A stretch of DNA of 61,896 nucleotides from an uncultured Hyphomicrobiales bacterium (GTDB taxonomy: Bacteria > Pseudomonadota > Alphaproteobacteria > Rhizobiales > Xanthobacteraceae), in assembly GCA_903839845.1 (NCBI GenBank), contig CAIMEA010000081.1:1-61896 (forward strand), read 5' to 3'. Made by a program: the position numbers and the translations under genes. Shown here piece by piece: positions 34,356 to 43,472 of this stretch. The number at the start of each line of letters is the position of its first letter. Position 1 is the first letter of the stretch. The notes beneath the pieces are model-generated. The model was not told the DNA's origin. It saw nothing but the letters and a program-made list of their open reading frames with translations, and ran no database searches.

Positions 34356-34474
34356 GCGGCGGTGTCCCTTTCAAAGCGCAGCAATCCTATGGGCCATCGG
34401 ATCGCTGCGCCAGTGATGACGACCGCCGCCGCCAGATCACGGACAATCCACTCACAGATAAATTGGCGGCTAAT

Positions 34475-34669
34475 TCATCGTGCCGAACAAGACCGTCGGT
34501 AGCGTTCGATCTCAATTTTTACTTCTCGCATCCGCCACTCCGGGACTTGGCGAGCGGCCCGTGCGCTGACCAGCCTGTTGAGGGTCCGCGTCCAGTACGC
34601 CAACAGCGCGCGCAGGCTTCGCACCTGAAACGGAAGGTCGGTAAGATGTTCCAATACAAGGGCAGTCAT
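34475..34669 (-). CDS. Small basic protein, N terminus like the 51-aa protein upstream
   Basis: 64 aa, not recognised. It begins MTALVLEHL and is then Arg-rich. The first nine residues parallel MVALLVEHL of the protein at 35045-35200, and both genes sit behind related leaders. The ribosome site is weak. Coding status is plausible because of the conserved start context, but no function can be given. Confidence 0.45.
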   Translation of the reverse strand: MTALVLEHLTDLPFQVRSLRALLAYWTRTLNRLVSARAARQVPEWRMREVKIEIERYRRSCSAR

Positions 34670-34790
34670 AGCAGGGTCTTCTGGTGTTTGCCGCAAGCCA
34701 TATTGGCTTGCCTGCCGTGATGTGGGTTGCGGCCTATATGAAATCGATTGGGAAAGTGGTGTCGGCATGTAGGCACGGCATAAAGACGGC
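34670..34790 (-). promoter_or_regulatory. Duplicated leader A, candidate structured RNA
   Basis: Minus-strand leader of the 64-aa gene. It shares ordered blocks with leader B (35201-35320): CTTTATG, TTCCCAATCGA (34754-34744) and CCCACAT (34726-34720), at similar distances from the start codon. Downstream of CCCACAT is a hairpin GCAAGCC/GGCTTGC with a five-base loop (34711-34693). CCCACAT is bracketed by a short CGGC/GCCG pairing. Leader B has different stem bases at the same places. Confidence 0.5.
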
Positions 34791-34796
34791 GGACGA

Positions 34797-35033
34797 TCAG
34801 CGCCAATATGTCGGCAGCCAGGTCGCGACCTTCAGCGCGACGGTCGCGATCAGAGCGGCGCATAAAATAGCGTGGACAATGAGTGGCCCGTAGGCGCGCC
34901 GGATTAGCGCGCGGGCGCGCTTCCAGAAATGGCGGTTTGCTTTCGGGCGCGCGAAGGCGAGATCGGATGCCGTAGCCGGCCGCCCTGCGCTGTCGCGCGA
35001 TTCCGAAATGTCTCTTTGTGAGATGACGGCCAC
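34797..35033 (-). CDS. Small protein with one C-terminal membrane segment
   Basis: 78 aa, not recognised. A charged N-terminal part (ISQRDISESRDSAGR, then HFWKRARALIRR) is followed by one hydrophobic stretch (PLIVHAILCAALIATVALKVATWL). GTG 35033 is chosen because GAGAAG lies about seven bases upstream; a longer frame overlaps the 51-aa gene. The gap to that gene is 11 bp, so the two are probably co-transcribed away from kdp. Confidence 0.4.
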   Translation of the reverse strand: MAVISQRDISESRDSAGRPATASDLAFARPKANRHFWKRARALIRRAYGPLIVHAILCAALIATVALKVATWLPTYWR

Positions 35034-35044
35034 TATCTTCTCTA

Positions 35045-35200
35045 CTAACGGCGAGCCAAGACCAGGCGGGCCTGGCGGCGCCGAATTGCGCGGCGCCGCG
35101 GCGCGGCCTGCGACCCGCCGAGATGCCAAAGGCCAATCAGTGAGCCGATCAGCAGGGCCAGAATGACGAGCTTGAGATGTTCAACCAGCAGGGCGACCAT
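35045..35200 (-). CDS. Small membrane protein beside the kdp operon
   Basis: 51 aa, not recognised. One membrane helix (KLVILALLIGSLIGLWHL, about residues 10-27) is followed by a strongly basic tail rich in Arg. ATG 35200 has AAGGAG at good spacing. It is divergent from kdp and preceded by leader B. Tiny single-helix proteins near ion pumps often modulate them, but that is only a guess here. Confidence 0.55.
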   Translation of the reverse strand: MVALLVEHLKLVILALLIGSLIGLWHLGGSQAAPRRRAIRRRQARLVLARR

Positions 35201-35320
35201 GGCGGCCACTCCTTTTTCGCAGAGGCTTGTTGCCTCCATGCCGGCAATGTGGGCGATGCCGCATAGGAATTCGATTGGGAAGTAAGGGTTTCCGCATAAG
35301 CGCGCCATAAAGGGCGGCCA
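35201..35320 (-). promoter_or_regulatory. Duplicated leader B, candidate structured RNA
   Basis: Minus-strand leader of the 51-aa gene. It matches leader A in ordered blocks: CTTTATG, TTCCCAATCGA (35281-35271) and CCCACAT (35253-35247). The following hairpin has arms GAGGC/GCCTC (35236-35222), different from the arms of leader A but at the same position. CCCACAT is bracketed by GCCG/CGGC flanks in a swapped order relative to leader A. Confidence 0.5.
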
Positions 35321-35353
35321 GACTGCCCACCGCGCGGCGCGGCCGGCGATCTT

Positions 35354-35370
35354 TATATCTCCTTGATATA
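35354..35370. promoter_or_regulatory. Inverted repeat TATATC-N5-GATATA in the kdp upstream region
   Basis: A perfect six-base inverted repeat with a five-base spacer (TCCTT) lies between the divergent small membrane gene and the kdp operon. It could be a KdpE operator or another regulator site. No strong promoter hexamers were identified with confidence around it. Confidence 0.35.
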
Positions 35371-35454
35371 GCGCAACTGCATTCCGCATCGCTTCCTTAC
35401 GGTGCAAAGCCTACGTGCAAGCTCGCTCCGGAATTCATTTGAAGGGCGCAGACA

Positions 35455-35538
35455 ATGCTCGATCTCATCGTACTGGCACTTGGAATTGGCTTGTTCGCGC
35501 TGTCGATCGGCTACGCCTACGCCTGCGACCGGCTCTGA
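35455..35538 (+). CDS. 27-residue membrane peptide at the head of the kdp operon
   Basis: 27 aa, one hydrophobic helix ending in a short polar tail (sequence begins MLDLIVLALGIG and ends YACDRL). ATG 35455 has GAAGGG upstream at good spacing. KdpF starts 12 bp after its stop. Similar short peptides ahead of kdpF are known to me from other proteobacterial kdp operons, usually unannotated. By size and place it may be an accessory subunit of the Kdp complex. Confidence 0.65.
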   Translation: MLDLIVLALGIGLFALSIGYAYACDRL

Positions 35539-35550
35539 AGGGGAAGACCC

Positions 35551-35640
35551 ATGACCTTCGATTACACAATCGCGGCGATCGTCGCGGCGGGACTGCTGTT
35601 CTACCTCACTTACGCTTTGGTGCGGCCGGAGAAGTTTTAA
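35551..35640 (+). CDS. kdpF: KdpF small subunit of the K+ pump
   Basis: 29 aa with one membrane helix: [14 protein letters not shown] followed by [15 protein letters not shown]. The C-terminal YALxRPExF is the hallmark of KdpF, which stabilises the KdpABC complex in the inner membrane. ATG 35551 is preceded by GGGGAAGA. It lies 40 bp upstream of kdpA. Confidence 0.9.
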
Positions 35641-35680
35641 GCCCGCGGGGCAAAGTTTCGCGCAAGCAAAGAGGCGTGTC

Positions 35681-37384
35681 ATGACCGTTATTGGCTGGAT
35701 TCAAATTCTGCTGTTCTGCGCGATCATCGTCGCGCTGACGCCCCTCGTCGGCGGGTATATGACGCGCGTCTTTGCCGGCGAGCGAACATGGCTCTCGGCC
35801 GTGTTGCGACCCGTCGAGGCGGCGATCTATTGGGCCGGCGGCGTCGACGAGAAGCGCGAACAGCATTGGCTGACCTATACCGTCGCCATGCTGCTGTTCC
35901 ATGTCGGCGGTTTTCTCATTCTCTATGTCCTCCTGCGCGTGCAGGCCGCGTTGCCCTTTAATCCGGCCGAGCAATCCAACGTCGCGCCCGATCTCGCCTT
36001 CAACACGGCAATCAGCTTCATCACCAACACCAACTGGCAGAACTACGGCGGCGAGGGGACCATGTCCTACCTCACGCAGATGCTCGGCCTGACGCACCAG
36101 AACTTCCTGTCGGCGGCAACCGGCATTGTCCTCGCCGTAGCGCTGATCCGCGGCTTCGCCCGCGCCTCGGCCAAGACGGTCGGCAACTTCTGGGTCGATA
36201 TCACGCGCTGCACGCTCTATATCCTGCTGCCGATCTGCGTGGTCTATACGATCTTCCTGGTCTGGCAGGGCATTCCGCAGACGCTTCAGCCTTACGTCGA
36301 TGCGGCCACGCTGGAAGGCGCCAAGCAGACCATCGCGGTCGGCCCGGTGGCCTCGCAGGTCGCCATCAAGATGCTCGGTACTAATGGCGGCGGCTTCTTC
36401 AACGCCAATGCCGCGCATCCGTTCGAGAACCCGACCGCACTGTCGAACTTCGTCCAGATGATCTCAATCTTCGTCCTTGGCGCGGCGCTAACTAACGTGT
36501 TCGGTCGTATGGTCGGCAACCAGCGCCAGGGCTGGGCGATCCTGTCGGTGATGGGTATCCTGTTTGTCGCCGGCGTTGCTTTTTGCTACTGGGCGGAAGC
36601 CAACGGAACGGCCACGCTTGATGCGCTGGGCCTGACCGGCGGCAACATGGAAGGCAAGGAAGTCCGCTTCGGCATTGTCGCTTCGGCGCTGTTTGCCGTT
36701 GTCACCACGGCGGCGTCGTGCGGCGCCGTCAACGCCATGCATGACTCGTTCTCCGCGCTCGGCGGCATGATCCCGCTGATCAACATCCAGCTCGGCGAAA
36801 TCGTCATCGGCGGCGTCGGCTCCGGACTTTACGGCATGCTGCTGTTCGTCGTCGTGACGATCTTTATCGCCGGCCTGATGGTCGGCCGCACGCCGGAATA
36901 TGTCGGCAAGAAGATCGAGGCCAAGGAAGTCAAGATGGCCATGCTCGCCATCCTGGCCATGCCGTTGATGATGTTGGGCTGGACCGCGGTCGCCGCGGTC
37001 AATCCGCAGGCATTGCCGCAGCTCGGCAATTCGGGCCCGCACGGCTTCTCGGAGATGCTTTATCTCTACGTATCGAGCACCGGCAATAACGGCTCGGCCT
37101 TCGGCGGCATCACCGCCAACACGATGTTCTTCAACATCACCGGCGCGATCGCGATGTTCGTCGGCCGCTTCTTCATGATCATCCCGGCCATGGCGATCGC
37201 CGGTTCGCTGGTCGAGAAGAAGAGCATTGCCGCCTCGCTTGGCACATTCCCGACCACCGGCGAGTTGTTTGTCGGCCTTACTGTCGGCGTCATCCTGGTC
37301 GTCGGCGGTCTCACATTCTTCCCTGTGCTGGCACTCGGGCCGATCGTCGAGCATCTCGCGATGCTTGCCGGCACCGTGTTCTGA
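35681..37384 (+). CDS. kdpA: KdpA, K+-translocating subunit
   Basis: 567 aa polytopic inner-membrane protein related to the SKT/Trk channels, normal length (E. coli 557). It binds and conducts K+ for the KdpFABC ATPase. Filter-type and conserved segments are visible: [59 protein letters not shown] and [12 protein letters not shown]. Start ATG 35681 is well placed after the kdpF stop. It is the second structural gene of an intact kdpFABCDE operon, induced under K+ limitation through KdpDE in known systems. Confidence 0.97.
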
Positions 37385-37407
37385 GCGGATCGATTGGAGT
37401 CAATGCC

Positions 37408-39480
<2,073 letters not shown>

Positions 39481-39491
39481 GGAGAGACATT

Positions 39492-40094
39492 ATGCTCAAG
39501 GAAATTCGCCCCGCCATCGTCGTCCTCGTCCTGCTGACGCTCATCACGGGTTTGGCCTATCCTTTGGCCATGACCGGCATCGCCGGCGCGATCTTTCCGA
39601 ACCAGGCGCAAGGCAGCCTGATCGAGAAGGACGGCAAGGTGATCGGCTCGGCGCTGATCGGCCAGTCGTTCACCAGCGACAAGTACTTCCACGGCCGGCC
39701 ATCGGCGACCAATGCGCCCGATCCGAAGGACGCCACCAAGACGGTTGATGCCCCTTACAATGCCGCCAATTCGATGGGCTCCAATCTCGGTCCGACCAGC
39801 AAGGCGCTGGCTGACCGGATCAAGGGCGACGTGGAAAGCCTGAAGAAGGAAAACGCGGCCGCCGCGATCCCGGTCGATCTGGTGACCACGTCGGGCAGCG
39901 GCCTCGACCCCGACATTTCCCCGGAAGCGGCGCGCTTCCAGGTGCCGCGGGTCGCCAAGGCGCGCGGCCTGCCTGAAACCAGCGTGCGTTCGCTGGTCGA
40001 GGGCCAGGTCGAGGGCCGCACTTTGGGCCTGCTCGGCGAGCCCCGGGTGAATGTACTCAGGCTCAACCTCGCACTCGATGCGATGAAGTCGTAG
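39492..40094 (+). CDS. kdpC: KdpC, accessory subunit of the K+ pump
   Basis: 200 aa, one N-terminal membrane helix (residues 6-27) and a soluble periplasmic domain with typical blocks [66 protein letters not shown] and [21 protein letters not shown] 39492 is preceded by GGAGAGA; an upstream TTG in frame has no ribosome site. It stabilises the KdpAB complex and raises ATP affinity in characterised systems. Confidence 0.97.
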
Positions 40095-40116
40095 AATGCC
40101 CGACTAAAGGAGCGGC

Positions 40117-42786
40117 ATGGCCTTCGACCCCGCGCAACGCGCTTCGCCCGACGCCCTTCTTGCGCTCGCCCGCAAGGAAGGGCGCGGCCATTTGAAGATC
40201 TTTCTTGGCGCGGCGCCCGGCGTCGGCAAGACCTACGCCATGCTGGCGTCCGCCCAGAGCGAAAAGGCCGGCGGCCGGGACGTTGTTGCCGGACTGATCG
40301 AAACGCATGGCCGCCGCGAGACCGAACGCCAGTTAGAGGGCTTCGACGTCCTGCCGCGCCAGCCGATTGTCTATCGCAACCAGATCATGAAGGAGTTCGA
40401 TCTGGACGCGGCGCTCCAACGCCGGCCGGGGCTGCTACTGGTCGATGAATATGCCCACACCAACGTGCCGGGCAGCCGCCATCCCAAGCGCTGGCAGGAC
40501 ATCGACGAACTGCTCGCCGCCGGCATCGATGTCTGGACCACGCTCAACATCCAGCATCTGGAAAGCCTCAACGACGTTATCCTGAAGATCACCAAGGTCC
40601 GCGTGCGCGAGACCGTGCCGGACACGGTGTTCGACAAAGCCGATGAAATCATCCTGGTCGATTTTCCGCCCGACGAATTGCTCAAGCGTCTGGCGGAAGG
40701 CAAGGTCTATGTTCAGGACACCGCGGCGCGGGCGGTCGAAAGCTTTTTCAAGCCGCAGAACCTGACCGCGTTGCGCGAACTGGCGCTGCGCCGCGCCGCC
40801 GAACGGATCGACACCGACCTGGTGTCGCGCATGCAGGCGCACGCCATCGAAGGGCCGTGGGCGGCCGGCGAGCGTATTCTTGCCTGCATCGGGCCGGACT
40901 CCAACTCGCCCGCCGTGGTGCGCGCCGCCAAGCGCTTGGCCGATCTTATGGACGCGCCCTGGCTGGCCGTCACGGTCGAACGGCCGGGTAGCCATGTCGG
41001 CGACACCGCGCGGGCGCGGATCGACGAGGCCATGAAGCTGGCGCAGACGCTGGGCGGTGAAACCCAGACGCTGACGGGCAGCGATCTGCCGGAGGAAGTG
41101 CTGCGCTTCGCCAAATTCGAGAACGTGACGCAGATCGTCATCGGCCGCTCGCAGAGCGGCTTCTTCAGCGAACTGCTCGGCCGCTCCTTGCCGCGTGAGT
41201 TGTCGCGCCGCGCGCAGGACATCGCCATTCATCTGGTGACGCGGCAGTCGGAAGCGGCGCCGCCGCCGTTGCGCCGTCGTGCCGGATTCGCGCTTGCGCC
41301 GCTGCCGTTCTTTTATGCAACACTGGCGATTGCCGCCGCCGTCGCTATCGGCAAATTGCTGACCGCTTTGACGCCGATCCCCAATCTGTCGATGCTGTTT
41401 CTGGTCGCCGTTGTGCTGATGGCGGTGAATTATGGAATCGCGCCGGCGATTTATGCATCGGTCTTGTCCTTCTTCACCTTCAATTTCTTTTTCATTCCGC
41501 CGATCTACACTTTCACCATCGCCGAGCCCTATGAGCTGCTGGCGTTGGTGGTGTTTCTGATCGTGGCCGTGATCACCGCGGCGCTCGGCGGCCGCGTGCG
41601 CGAACAGGCGACGGTCGCCGCCGGCCGCATGCGCGCGACGCGCCGGCTTTATGAATTTACGCGCCGTCTGTCCGGGCTGGCGTCATTCGACGCGGTCGCC
41701 GAAGGCGCGGCGAGCGAGATCCATGCCAGTCTCGGCCGTGCCGTCGTCGTTCTGCTGGAAAGCAACGGCGAATTGGTCATGACCGCCGCATGGCCGCCGG
41801 AGGATGCGCTCGATGCCGCGCCGATGATGGCGGCCCACTGGGCGCTCACACATGGCGAACCGGCCGGCGCCGACACTGGCACCTTGCCGATCGTGCCGTG
41901 GTATTTCGTGCCGTTGCGCATCGGCGACAAGACGCTCGGCGTTATCGGCGTCGCCAGGCCGGATGGCGCGGCCGCGCTCGATTCGGAGGCGCGCGCTTTG
42001 CTCGATGCCTTGTCTGAGCAGGCCGCGGCGGCGCTGGACCGAGCCTCGATGGCGCGTGACATGGTCAGCGCCAAAACCGCGACCGAGACCGAGCGCGTGC
42101 GCAACACGCTGCTGGCATCGATCTCGCACGATTTCCGCACGCCGTTGTCGTCGATCCTGGGGGCTGCCACCAGTTTGATCGACTATGGCGACAAGTTGGA
42201 CGCCGCCGCCAAAACCGACATGTTGCGGCAGATCAAGCAGGAAACCGAGGGCCTCGACGAGATGGTGCGCAACTTGCTCGCGATTACGCGCATTGATTCG
42301 GGCGCGCTCGAACTGCGACGCGACTGGATCGATCTGCGCGAGATCGTCGATCGTGTCGTCAGCGCCACTCGCCGGCGCGGCGCGGCGCAGACCATTACCG
42401 TCGCGCTGCCGGCCGACCTGCCGCTGGTGCGCGCCGATGCCACTTTGGTCGAGCAGGCCATCGGCAATGTGATCGGCAACGCCATCGCGCACACGCCGCC
42501 GCAGACCAAAGTGCAGGTCGACGCAGTGATCGGTGGCGACACGGTGGCCTTAAGGTTCACCGACGACGGGCCGGGCATTCCGGCGCAGGCGCTGCCGCGG
42601 GTGTTCGAGAAATTCGTCAAGGCCGATACCTTGGCCGATGGCGGGCAGGGCACCGGATTGGGGCTGGCCATTGCCAAGGGCATCATGGAGGCGCATGGCG
42701 GTTCGGTTGCCGCCGAAAGTCCGCATGCGGCGGGGGCCGGCACGCGTATCGTTTTGACATTTCCCCGCCAGGACATTCCGGCATGA
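40117..42786 (+). CDS. kdpD: KdpD sensor histidine kinase
   Basis: 889 aa, normal length. The N-terminal KdpD domain has a Walker A GAAPGVGKT at residues 31-39, followed by a USP-like region, four membrane helices (about 400-500), a GAF-like part, and the HisKA domain with SHDFRTP (phospho-acceptor His671). The C-terminal HATPase has N (NVIGNAIAHTPP), DDGPGIP and GTGLGLAIAKG boxes. It senses K+ limitation and phosphorylates KdpE. The gene overlaps kdpE by four bases (ATGA). Confidence 0.97.
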   Translation: MAFDPAQRASPDALLALARKEGRGHLKIFLGAAPGVGKTYAMLASAQSEKAGGRDVVAGLIETHGRRETERQLEGFDVLPRQPIVYRNQIMKEFDLDAALQRRPGLLLVDEYAHTNVPGSRHPKRWQDIDELLAAGIDVWTTLNIQHLESLNDVILKITKVRVRETVPDTVFDKADEIILVDFPPDELLKRLAEGKVYVQDTAARAVESFFKPQNLTALRELALRRAAERIDTDLVSRMQAHAIEGPWAAGERILACIGPDSNSPAVVRAAKRLADLMDAPWLAVTVERPGSHVGDTARARIDEAMKLAQTLGGETQTLTGSDLPEEVLRFAKFENVTQIVIGRSQSGFFSELLGRSLPRELSRRAQDIAIHLVTRQSEAAPPPLRRRAGFALAPLPFFYATLAIAAAVAIGKLLTALTPIPNLSMLFLVAVVLMAVNYGIAPAIYASVLSFFTFNFFFIPPIYTFTIAEPYELLALVVFLIVAVITAALGGRVREQATVAAGRMRATRRLYEFTRRLSGLASFDAVAEGAASEIHASLGRAVVVLLESNGELVMTAAWPPEDALDAAPMMAAHWALTHGEPAGADTGTLPIVPWYFVPLRIGDKTLGVIGVARPDGAAALDSEARALLDALSEQAAAALDRASMARDMVSAKTATETERVRNTLLASISHDFRTPLSSILGAATSLIDYGDKLDAAAKTDMLRQIKQETEGLDEMVRNLLAITRIDSGALELRRDWIDLREIVDRVVSATRRRGAAQTITVALPADLPLVRADATLVEQAIGNVIGNAIAHTPPQTKVQVDAVIGGDTVALRFTDDGPGIPAQALPRVFEKFVKADTLADGGQGTGLGLAIAKGIMEAHGGSVAAESPHAAGAGTRIVLTFPRQDIPA

Positions 42787-43472
42787 GCAACAAGACACAG
42801 GTTCTGGTCGTCGATGACGAGGCCGCCATCCTGCGCTTTCTTAAGCCCGCGCTGGAAGCCAACAATTACGAGATGACGAGCGCCGGCACGGTGGCGGACG
42901 CGACCAAGCGCATCGCCGCCGAGTCGCCCGATATCGTGCTGCTCGATCTCGGTCTGCCCGATGGCGACGGCAAGGAGGTCATCAAGCGCGCGCGCGAATG
43001 GTCAGACGTGCCGATCATCGTGCTGTCGGCGCGTGAGCGCGAGACCGAAAAGATCGAGTCCCTCGACCTCGGCGCCGACGATTATATCAACAAGCCGTTC
43101 AATGTCGGTGAACTGCTGGCGCGCATGCGCGCCGCATTGCGCCACCGGATGCAGCGCAAAGCGGAAGTGCCGGTGCTGCGCGTCGGCAATATCGAGGTCG
43201 ACGCGGTGCGCCGCCGCGCCAACCGCGCCGGCGCGGAACTGAAGCTGACACCTAAGGAATTCGAACTGCTGTCGTTCCTTTCCAGGCATGCCGGCCGCGT
43301 GCTGACGCATCGGCAGATTCTGACCGCGGTCTGGGGCCCGGCGCACACCGAGGATACTCAGTATCTGCGGGTCTATGTCGGCCAGTTGCGGCAGAAAATC
43401 GAAGAGCACGCCGACGACCCGCGCATTATTCTGACTGAGCCGGGGATCGGCTATCGGATCGCCGATAGCTAA
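42783..43472 (+). CDS. kdpE: KdpE response regulator
   Basis: 229 aa OmpR-family regulator. The receiver domain has the acidic pair (VVDDE), phospho-acceptor Asp55 (IVLLDLGLPDGDG), and the conserved Lys of NKPF. The C-terminal winged helix has LTPKEFELLSFLSRHAGRVLTHRQIL and YLRVYVGQLRQKIE. It activates the kdp operon when phosphorylated by KdpD. It ends 18 bp from the convergent minus-strand pseudogene. Confidence 0.97.
   Translation: MSNKTQVLVVDDEAAILRFLKPALEANNYEMTSAGTVADATKRIAAESPDIVLLDLGLPDGDGKEVIKRAREWSDVPIIVLSARERETEKIESLDLGADDYINKPFNVGELLARMRAALRHRMQRKAEVPVLRVGNIEVDAVRRRANRAGAELKLTPKEFELLSFLSRHAGRVLTHRQILTAVWGPAHTEDTQYLRVYVGQLRQKIEEHADDPRIILTEPGIGYRIADS

Follow-up and report, generated by a model that had tools for sequence, protein, structure and literature searches.

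Two probable KdpE-type promoter copies with a 5′UTR hairpin precede small ORFs divergent from a kdpFABCDE locus

The window, by which we mean the whole 61,896-nucleotide stretch of DNA analysed, carries a kdp locus on its plus strand, with both kdpD and kdpE present (40117-43472). KdpA, KdpD and KdpE were identified by family search; three further genes, named by position, are presumably kdpF, kdpB and kdpC. Ahead of kdpF (35551-35640) lies a 27-aa ORF, MLDLIVLALGIGLFALSIGYAYACDRL, at 35455-35538 (+), and a similar ORF is found at 23 of the 27 order-level loci upstream of kdp that were fetched with the model R2 described below. On the minus strand, divergent from kdpFABCDE, are three small ORFs (B, 2 and A) and two leaders, B and A. 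The earlier note on this DNA had drawn attention to the leaders; their divergence from kdp and the 78-aa ORF between them (35033-34797) are points that it did not contain. The features are as follows.

34475-34669, minus strand: ORF A, 64 aa, with the start MTALVLEHL; contains VSARAARQVPEW
34693-34711, minus strand: hairpin A, GCAAGCCA / ATA / TGGCTTGC, from stem search and compensatory changes
34720-34726, minus strand: CCCACAT of leader A, from block alignment
34734-34754, minus strand: predicted core of promoter A, TTCCCAATCGATTTCATATAG, with a putative -10-like ATATAG
34768-34784, minus strand: putative KdpE box of promoter A, TTTATG (34784-34779) and a weaker CCTACA (34773-34768), 5 bp apart
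34797-35033, minus strand: ORF 2, 78 aa, with a GTG start and a hydrophobic C-terminal stretch; ends just before promoter A
35045-35200, minus strand: ORF B, 51 aa, starting MVALLVEHLK, then a hydrophobic stretch and a basic C-terminus; AAGGAG upstream
35220-35238, minus strand: hairpin B, TGGAGGC / AACAA / GCCTCTG, from stem search and compensatory changes
35247-35253, minus strand: CCCACAT of leader B, about at the predicted transcript start
35261-35281, minus strand: predicted core of promoter B, TTCCCAATCGAATTCCTATGC, with a putative -10-like CTATGC (35266-35261)
35295-35311, minus strand: putative KdpE box of promoter B, half-sites TTTATG (35311-35306) and CTTATG (35300-35295), 5 bp apart; site definition from PMC3264566
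35347-35412, plus strand: the kdp operon's own promoter, divergent from B, half-sites TTTATA (35352-35357) and TTGATA (35363-35368)
35455-43472, plus strand: 27-aa ORF, kdpF, kdpA, kdpB, kdpC, kdpD and kdpE
42783-43472, plus strand: kdpE, from family search

Leaders A and B share three blocks, which align on the minus strand without gaps and with identical spacing: CTTTATG (34785-34779 in A, 35312-35306 in B), TTCCCAATCGA (34754-34744 and 35281-35271) and CCCACAT (34726-34720 and 35253-35247). This confirms what the earlier note had said of the shared blocks, and its description of hairpins of different sequence at the same position (both at offset 16) and of proteins starting MTALVLEHL (ORF A, 34669-34475) and MVALLVEHL (ORF B, 35200-35045) also proved correct. 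The blocks are conserved and the intervening stretches have diverged. Because TTCCCAATCGA alone has four copies in the 4.04-Mb genome, it is the composite pattern, not the single block, that counts. The composite TTCCCAATCGA-N-TTC-N-TAT-N9-CCCACAT occurs exactly twice in the window, at the two leaders, and it has no match in 100 dinucleotide shuffles even when up to three mismatches are allowed. The -10/-35 assignment in both leaders was made by eye, and no good -35 was seen on that inspection. A sigma-54 site or a plain sigma-70 -35 at the core was also considered by eye and was unconvincing.

The small ORFs have no Pfam or NCBIfam family: searches with ORFs A, B and 2 and two relatives gave only sub-threshold, implausible matches, as did a Pfam search with one further 80-aa neighbour ORF. 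Across the genus, the relatives of ORFs A and B begin alike, roughly M-x-A-L-x-x-E-(H/N/R)-L, and are of different types beyond that point. Such shared N-termini with divergent bodies would follow from a joint duplication of promoter, UTR and first codons. Counts at codon positions 1/2/3 are 239/169/358 for A and 203/162/256 for B, a position-3 excess that is only moderate, so that ORFs A and B are likely protein-coding and this is not proved.

Homologues of the leaders, the absence of which elsewhere the earlier note would have counted against its claim, do occur in the genus. With up to three mismatches, seven of 150 genomes carry the composite pattern; one of the seven is the window's own genome, and all belong to a single genus. 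Five of the seven loci opened adjoin a KdpA-like ORF. A sequence-only model of nine leaders, A and B among them, which we call R1, matches 20 of the 43 genomes of the genus (E ≤ 0.1) and 73 of the 248 genomes of the family (E ≤ 0.01), where two or three would be expected by chance. The matches in other genera mostly lie within positions 7-99 of the model's 117, most ending at 60-99 and a few reaching 102-109; the hairpin occupies about 90-110 in these coordinates. The kdp promoter of the window is itself an R1 match (35345-35418 on the plus strand, E 0.077). Among the 56 R1 loci that were fetched and examined (L014-L069), 11 immediately precede kdpF/kdpA in the same orientation, and 10 of these 11 belong to other genera. 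KdpA was found in 178 of the 248 genomes, and its presence follows that of the leader (66/73 leader-positive vs 112/175 leader-negative genomes, P 1e-5), an association that is partly circular since kdp promoters count as matches. The K+ pump, which the earlier note had pointed to as the neighbour, is relevant, and the blocks match the kdp promoters of other genera.

These promoters were compared in about 750 bp around the kdpA start of 32 genomes (3 from the window's own genus and 29 from other genera, one each), taken from the KdpA search regardless of R1 matches. The repeat TTTATR-N5-TTTATR scores at least 10 of 12 in 25 of the 32 regions, vs 1.1% of shuffles. A gap of 5 is best, with 11 regions scoring at least 11 vs 2, 0, 0 and 1 for gaps of 3, 4, 6 and 7; gaps of 3 and 7 are also above shuffled means (16 and 11 regions at 10 or more). 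About 12-13 nt past the repeat, most regions have a TTCC/TCC..TCG-type block and then a TTATG/CTATG core, as in the leaders. This layout, from the TTTAT(A/G)-N5 repeat to the TATG core, precedes kdpFABC in most genera of the family examined.

We built a second model, R2, from 27 kdp promoters of 27 other genera, with none from the window's own genus. The three own-genus regions were left out, as were two that scored below 9 for the repeat (L074, score 8; L075, score 7, truncated by a contig end). Because TTTATR-N5-TTTATR, the pattern by which each training box was found, had been derived from the leaders and from the E. coli site, R2 is not wholly independent in its box; in its core, which played no part in the selection, it is independent. 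With filters off, the three best matches in the window are leader B (5.2e-8), leader A (1.8e-6) and its own kdp promoter (2e-5), followed by one at 0.42. The same three lead in the 4-Mb genome (3.2e-6, 1.1e-4 and 0.0014), where only one further site, at two contig ends and ahead of an ORF of about 80 aa with a hydrophobic stretch, falls at E ≤ 0.1 (0.009). Leaders A and B therefore share the architecture of the lineage's kdp promoters. At E ≤ 0.001, 72 of the 297 genomes searched across the order have an R2 match. Of the 30 order-level loci fetched (one of them, from G066, was in the training set), 27 are directly upstream of kdpF/kdpA, and at the remaining three KdpD is matched on the other strand, no more than 500 bases away. 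Within the genus, kdp lies directly behind 9 of 23 R2 loci; seven leader loci were kept out of these 23. R2 thus acts as a model of kdp promoters, which the leaders satisfy.

The repeat can also be set beside the published KdpE site of E. coli, for which PMC3264566 gives half-sites TTTATA-N5-TTTACA within a footprint from -72 to -50. That paper reports that each half-site starts with two T that do not vary among the genera it compared, and that changing two bases in TTTA abolishes KdpE binding. The first half-site, TTTATG in both A and B, fits this rule; the second (CTTATG in B, CCTACA in A) departs from it. The departure is common to kdp promoters themselves, since among 30 of the lineage 14 have a second half-site that begins with C, vs 15 that begin with TT, CCTATA being the commonest form. 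The predicted box position in the leaders is about -60 to -43, counting from a start placed by the -10-like CTATGC.

Taken together, it is very probable that a KdpE-activated promoter with a short 5′UTR is present twice here, as leaders A and B, serving a divergent small-protein cluster that is predicted to be induced together with the Kdp pump. For the promoter, this reading rests on the architecture shared with kdp promoters, the likeness to the published site and the genome-wide specificity of R2; for the UTR, it rests on the hairpin covariation described below. Under low K+ or a fall in turgor, KdpD would phosphorylate KdpE, which would bind the direct repeat (TTTATG-N5-CTTATG in B) about 45-60 bp upstream of the start and activate RNA polymerase at the conserved TTCCCAATCGAATTCCTATGC core. 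We infer that KdpE would act likewise on the kdpFABC promoter and, facing the other way, on promoter B (for ORF B and ORF 2) and promoter A (for ORF A). Promoter, UTR and first codons would have been duplicated together and joined to different ORF bodies, hence the alike N-termini of ORFs A and B.

The degree of confidence in KdpE itself is lowered by the second half-site, by how the training boxes had been found and by the existence of KdpE-like paralogues, all of which raise the probability that another regulator is involved. An OmpR/PhoB-family protein sharing the direct repeat might bind these promoters, alone or besides KdpE, though we regard this as unlikely. In five genomes with promoter matches (G040, G010, G164, G017 and G056), the best KdpE-like protein reaches only 40-49% identity with KdpE of the window. 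In G040 (96% complete), KdpA and KdpD were not found despite a match of E 5.5e-11, and the best KdpE-like protein is 43% identical. Neither were they found in G164 (100% complete), G056 (99%), G017 (94%) and G010 (82%), where the match is weaker or the assembly less complete; those of G056 and G017 are weak matches. In G018 and G035, there is no clear KdpD and no close KdpE, and kdp pieces lie at contig ends. Several of the exceptions are weak matches or incomplete assemblies. Orthology cannot be read reliably from identity: G215 has a 51% KdpE-like protein and KdpD together on one small contig. In G016, G039 and G041, the true, close KdpE (82-86%) is accompanied by another KdpE-like response regulator (48-51%), a point in favour of a regulator other than KdpE; in the G039 assembly, KdpA and KdpD were not found and KdpE is present (86%). 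However, in the window's own genome three of the four sites that match the kdp model at E ≤ 0.1 are at the kdp locus, and the loci fetched across the order are mostly ahead of kdp, both of which favour KdpE. As a separate observation, G040 has a strong leader-type promoter (L104:1276-1357) before a secreted-looking ORF of up to 109 aa.

Downstream of the promoter blocks, the best stem falls at offset 15-18 after CCCACAT in 13 of 14 leaders from nine genomes of one genus, with arms as different as TGGAGGC/GCCTCTG, CGGAAG/CTTCCG, GGCGGC/GCCGCC and GCAAGCCA/TGGCTTGC. Ten of the 14 leaders have a stem score at P < 0.05 against shuffles, vs 4 of 30 kdp promoters at the same place; leader B (P 0.11) is one of the four that do not. 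In an alignment of 13 rows (L038, with a shifted stem, is in the 14-leader tests and out of this alignment), 94.5% of cells are paired, a value that none of 500 shuffles reached and that compares with at most 50.5% for slid versions. Three of the seven stem pairs have changed on both sides, a count reached by 78 of 500 shuffles, and the number of pair types is not unusual (reached by 165 of 500). The leader of G041 (L021/L006), which precedes an unrelated ORF and is in R1, breaks some stem pairs and was left out of the hairpin tests. Folding energy is weak evidence (mean z -1.26 for the 14 leaders, 9 of them below -1, leader B at +0.27), so the case for the hairpin rests on position and compensatory change. 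The consensus fold of nine leaders pairs only columns 90-96 with 104-110 and leaves the blocks (columns 15-80) unpaired. The hairpin is best read as a real 5′UTR element of the small-ORF messages, separate from the promoter blocks; as the rows are related, all coming from one genus, the covariation is support, not proof. It would be an accessory RNA element, most likely affecting mRNA stability or ribosome access.

The earlier note had gone further and proposed a structured regulatory RNA, in which the blocks would be conserved loops and the hairpin a riboswitch-like switching stem sensing K+, Mg2+ or osmotic state. Part of this holds, in that the stems vary in sequence and still pair, at the same position in nearly all leaders. 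However, the blocks are not loops of that structure: their place is at the predicted transcript start or upstream of it, in a region with no consensus structure, and they recur, similarly spaced, in kdp promoters outside the genus, few of which have a significant stem. R1 matches in other genera also mostly stop before or at the hairpin. A single stem of 6-9 bp with no conserved loop letters is also unlike a riboswitch. The earlier note knew of no described family, and this agrees with the Rfam covariance models, which gave no match in the whole window at the gathering threshold and none in 34400-35700 at E up to 10. We dropped the riboswitch reading, which now seems highly improbable, on account of the same blocks in kdp promoters that mostly have no hairpin. 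That A and B are merely a recent neutral duplication with functionless blocks and stems has next to no probability: the two are paralogous down to their first ORF codons, yet the blocks are kept while the stretches between have diverged, the stems are not equally conserved (equal conservation being the sign of mere duplication named in the earlier note) and change with pairing kept by compensatory changes, and homologues that precede related ORFs in nine genomes of the genus, the window's included, already contradict it.

KdpE-type promoters before small ORFs are found beyond the two leaders. In genus g25 of the order sample, four R2 matches occur in each of 4 of the 8 genomes. Three of these genomes were opened (L174, L175 and L176), and in each of them three divergent promoters of the kdp type lie no more than about 4 kb from that of kdp itself. 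They precede an ORF of about 155 aa and one of 84-91 aa with a FIGRN..G.WVAQEQNG motif; in two of the three, an ORF of about 62 aa with a hydrophobic stretch also lies behind such a promoter. The window's own genome holds a further kdp-type promoter (L102:24-93, on contig C8, with the same sequence at the end of contig C142) before an ORF of about 80 aa, which has a hydrophobic stretch and the motif DC..I...ARLACYDA...QPAKGA. Relatives of this ORF follow such promoters in G002, G010, G024, G027, G029, G030 and G031. The further promoters in the window's genome and in g25 suggest a wider, undescribed KdpE small-protein regulon. Among the literature matches listed, titles and opening parts of abstracts contain no description of such a regulon in Alphaproteobacteria, a scope that leaves most subscription literature outside. 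It is tempting to generalize, and we do so tentatively, as a speculation with clearly less than even chances: a family-wide KdpE regulon may comprise small, mostly membrane proteins, encoded behind divergent arrays of kdp-type promoters beside kdpFABC and elsewhere, whose expression the hairpin would tune in the window's own genus, and the proteins might modulate the K+ pump, KdpD or the membrane under K+ limitation.

How small membrane proteins tune transporters is a current question. With the reading as KdpE-type promoters, a puzzling “leader RNA” becomes a model of promoter control under K+ limitation in this order that can be tested, and it predicts co-regulation with the Kdp pump for several groups of small proteins that have no Pfam or NCBIfam family where searched. 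As one DNA element would define the regulon, these small proteins should be easy to pick out. The mechanism itself, a response-regulator promoter, is ordinary. What is modestly new is that the promoter is duplicated and would drive small proteins of no known family with a conserved 5′UTR hairpin.

Compared with known systems, the leaders resemble the riboswitches and structured leaders of Rfam in having a 5′UTR stem with compensatory changes ahead of small ORFs; they differ in matching no Rfam family and in having their blocks outside the stem and in common with kdp promoters. ORFs B and 2 resemble KdpF-type small membrane peptides: they are short, contain hydrophobic stretches, lie at the kdp locus and would come under the same control. 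In contrast to these, all three small ORFs (A, B and 2) point away from kdp and belong to no Pfam or NCBIfam family. The E. coli kdpFABC promoter likewise has two 6-bp direct repeats 5 bp apart upstream of the core, with kdpDE in the locus. Here, however, the second half-site often starts with C, the predicted box sits closer to the start, by about 10 bp, than the footprint in E. coli, the core is a lineage-specific TTCC..ATCG..TATG, and copies A and B would drive small ORFs, not the pump.
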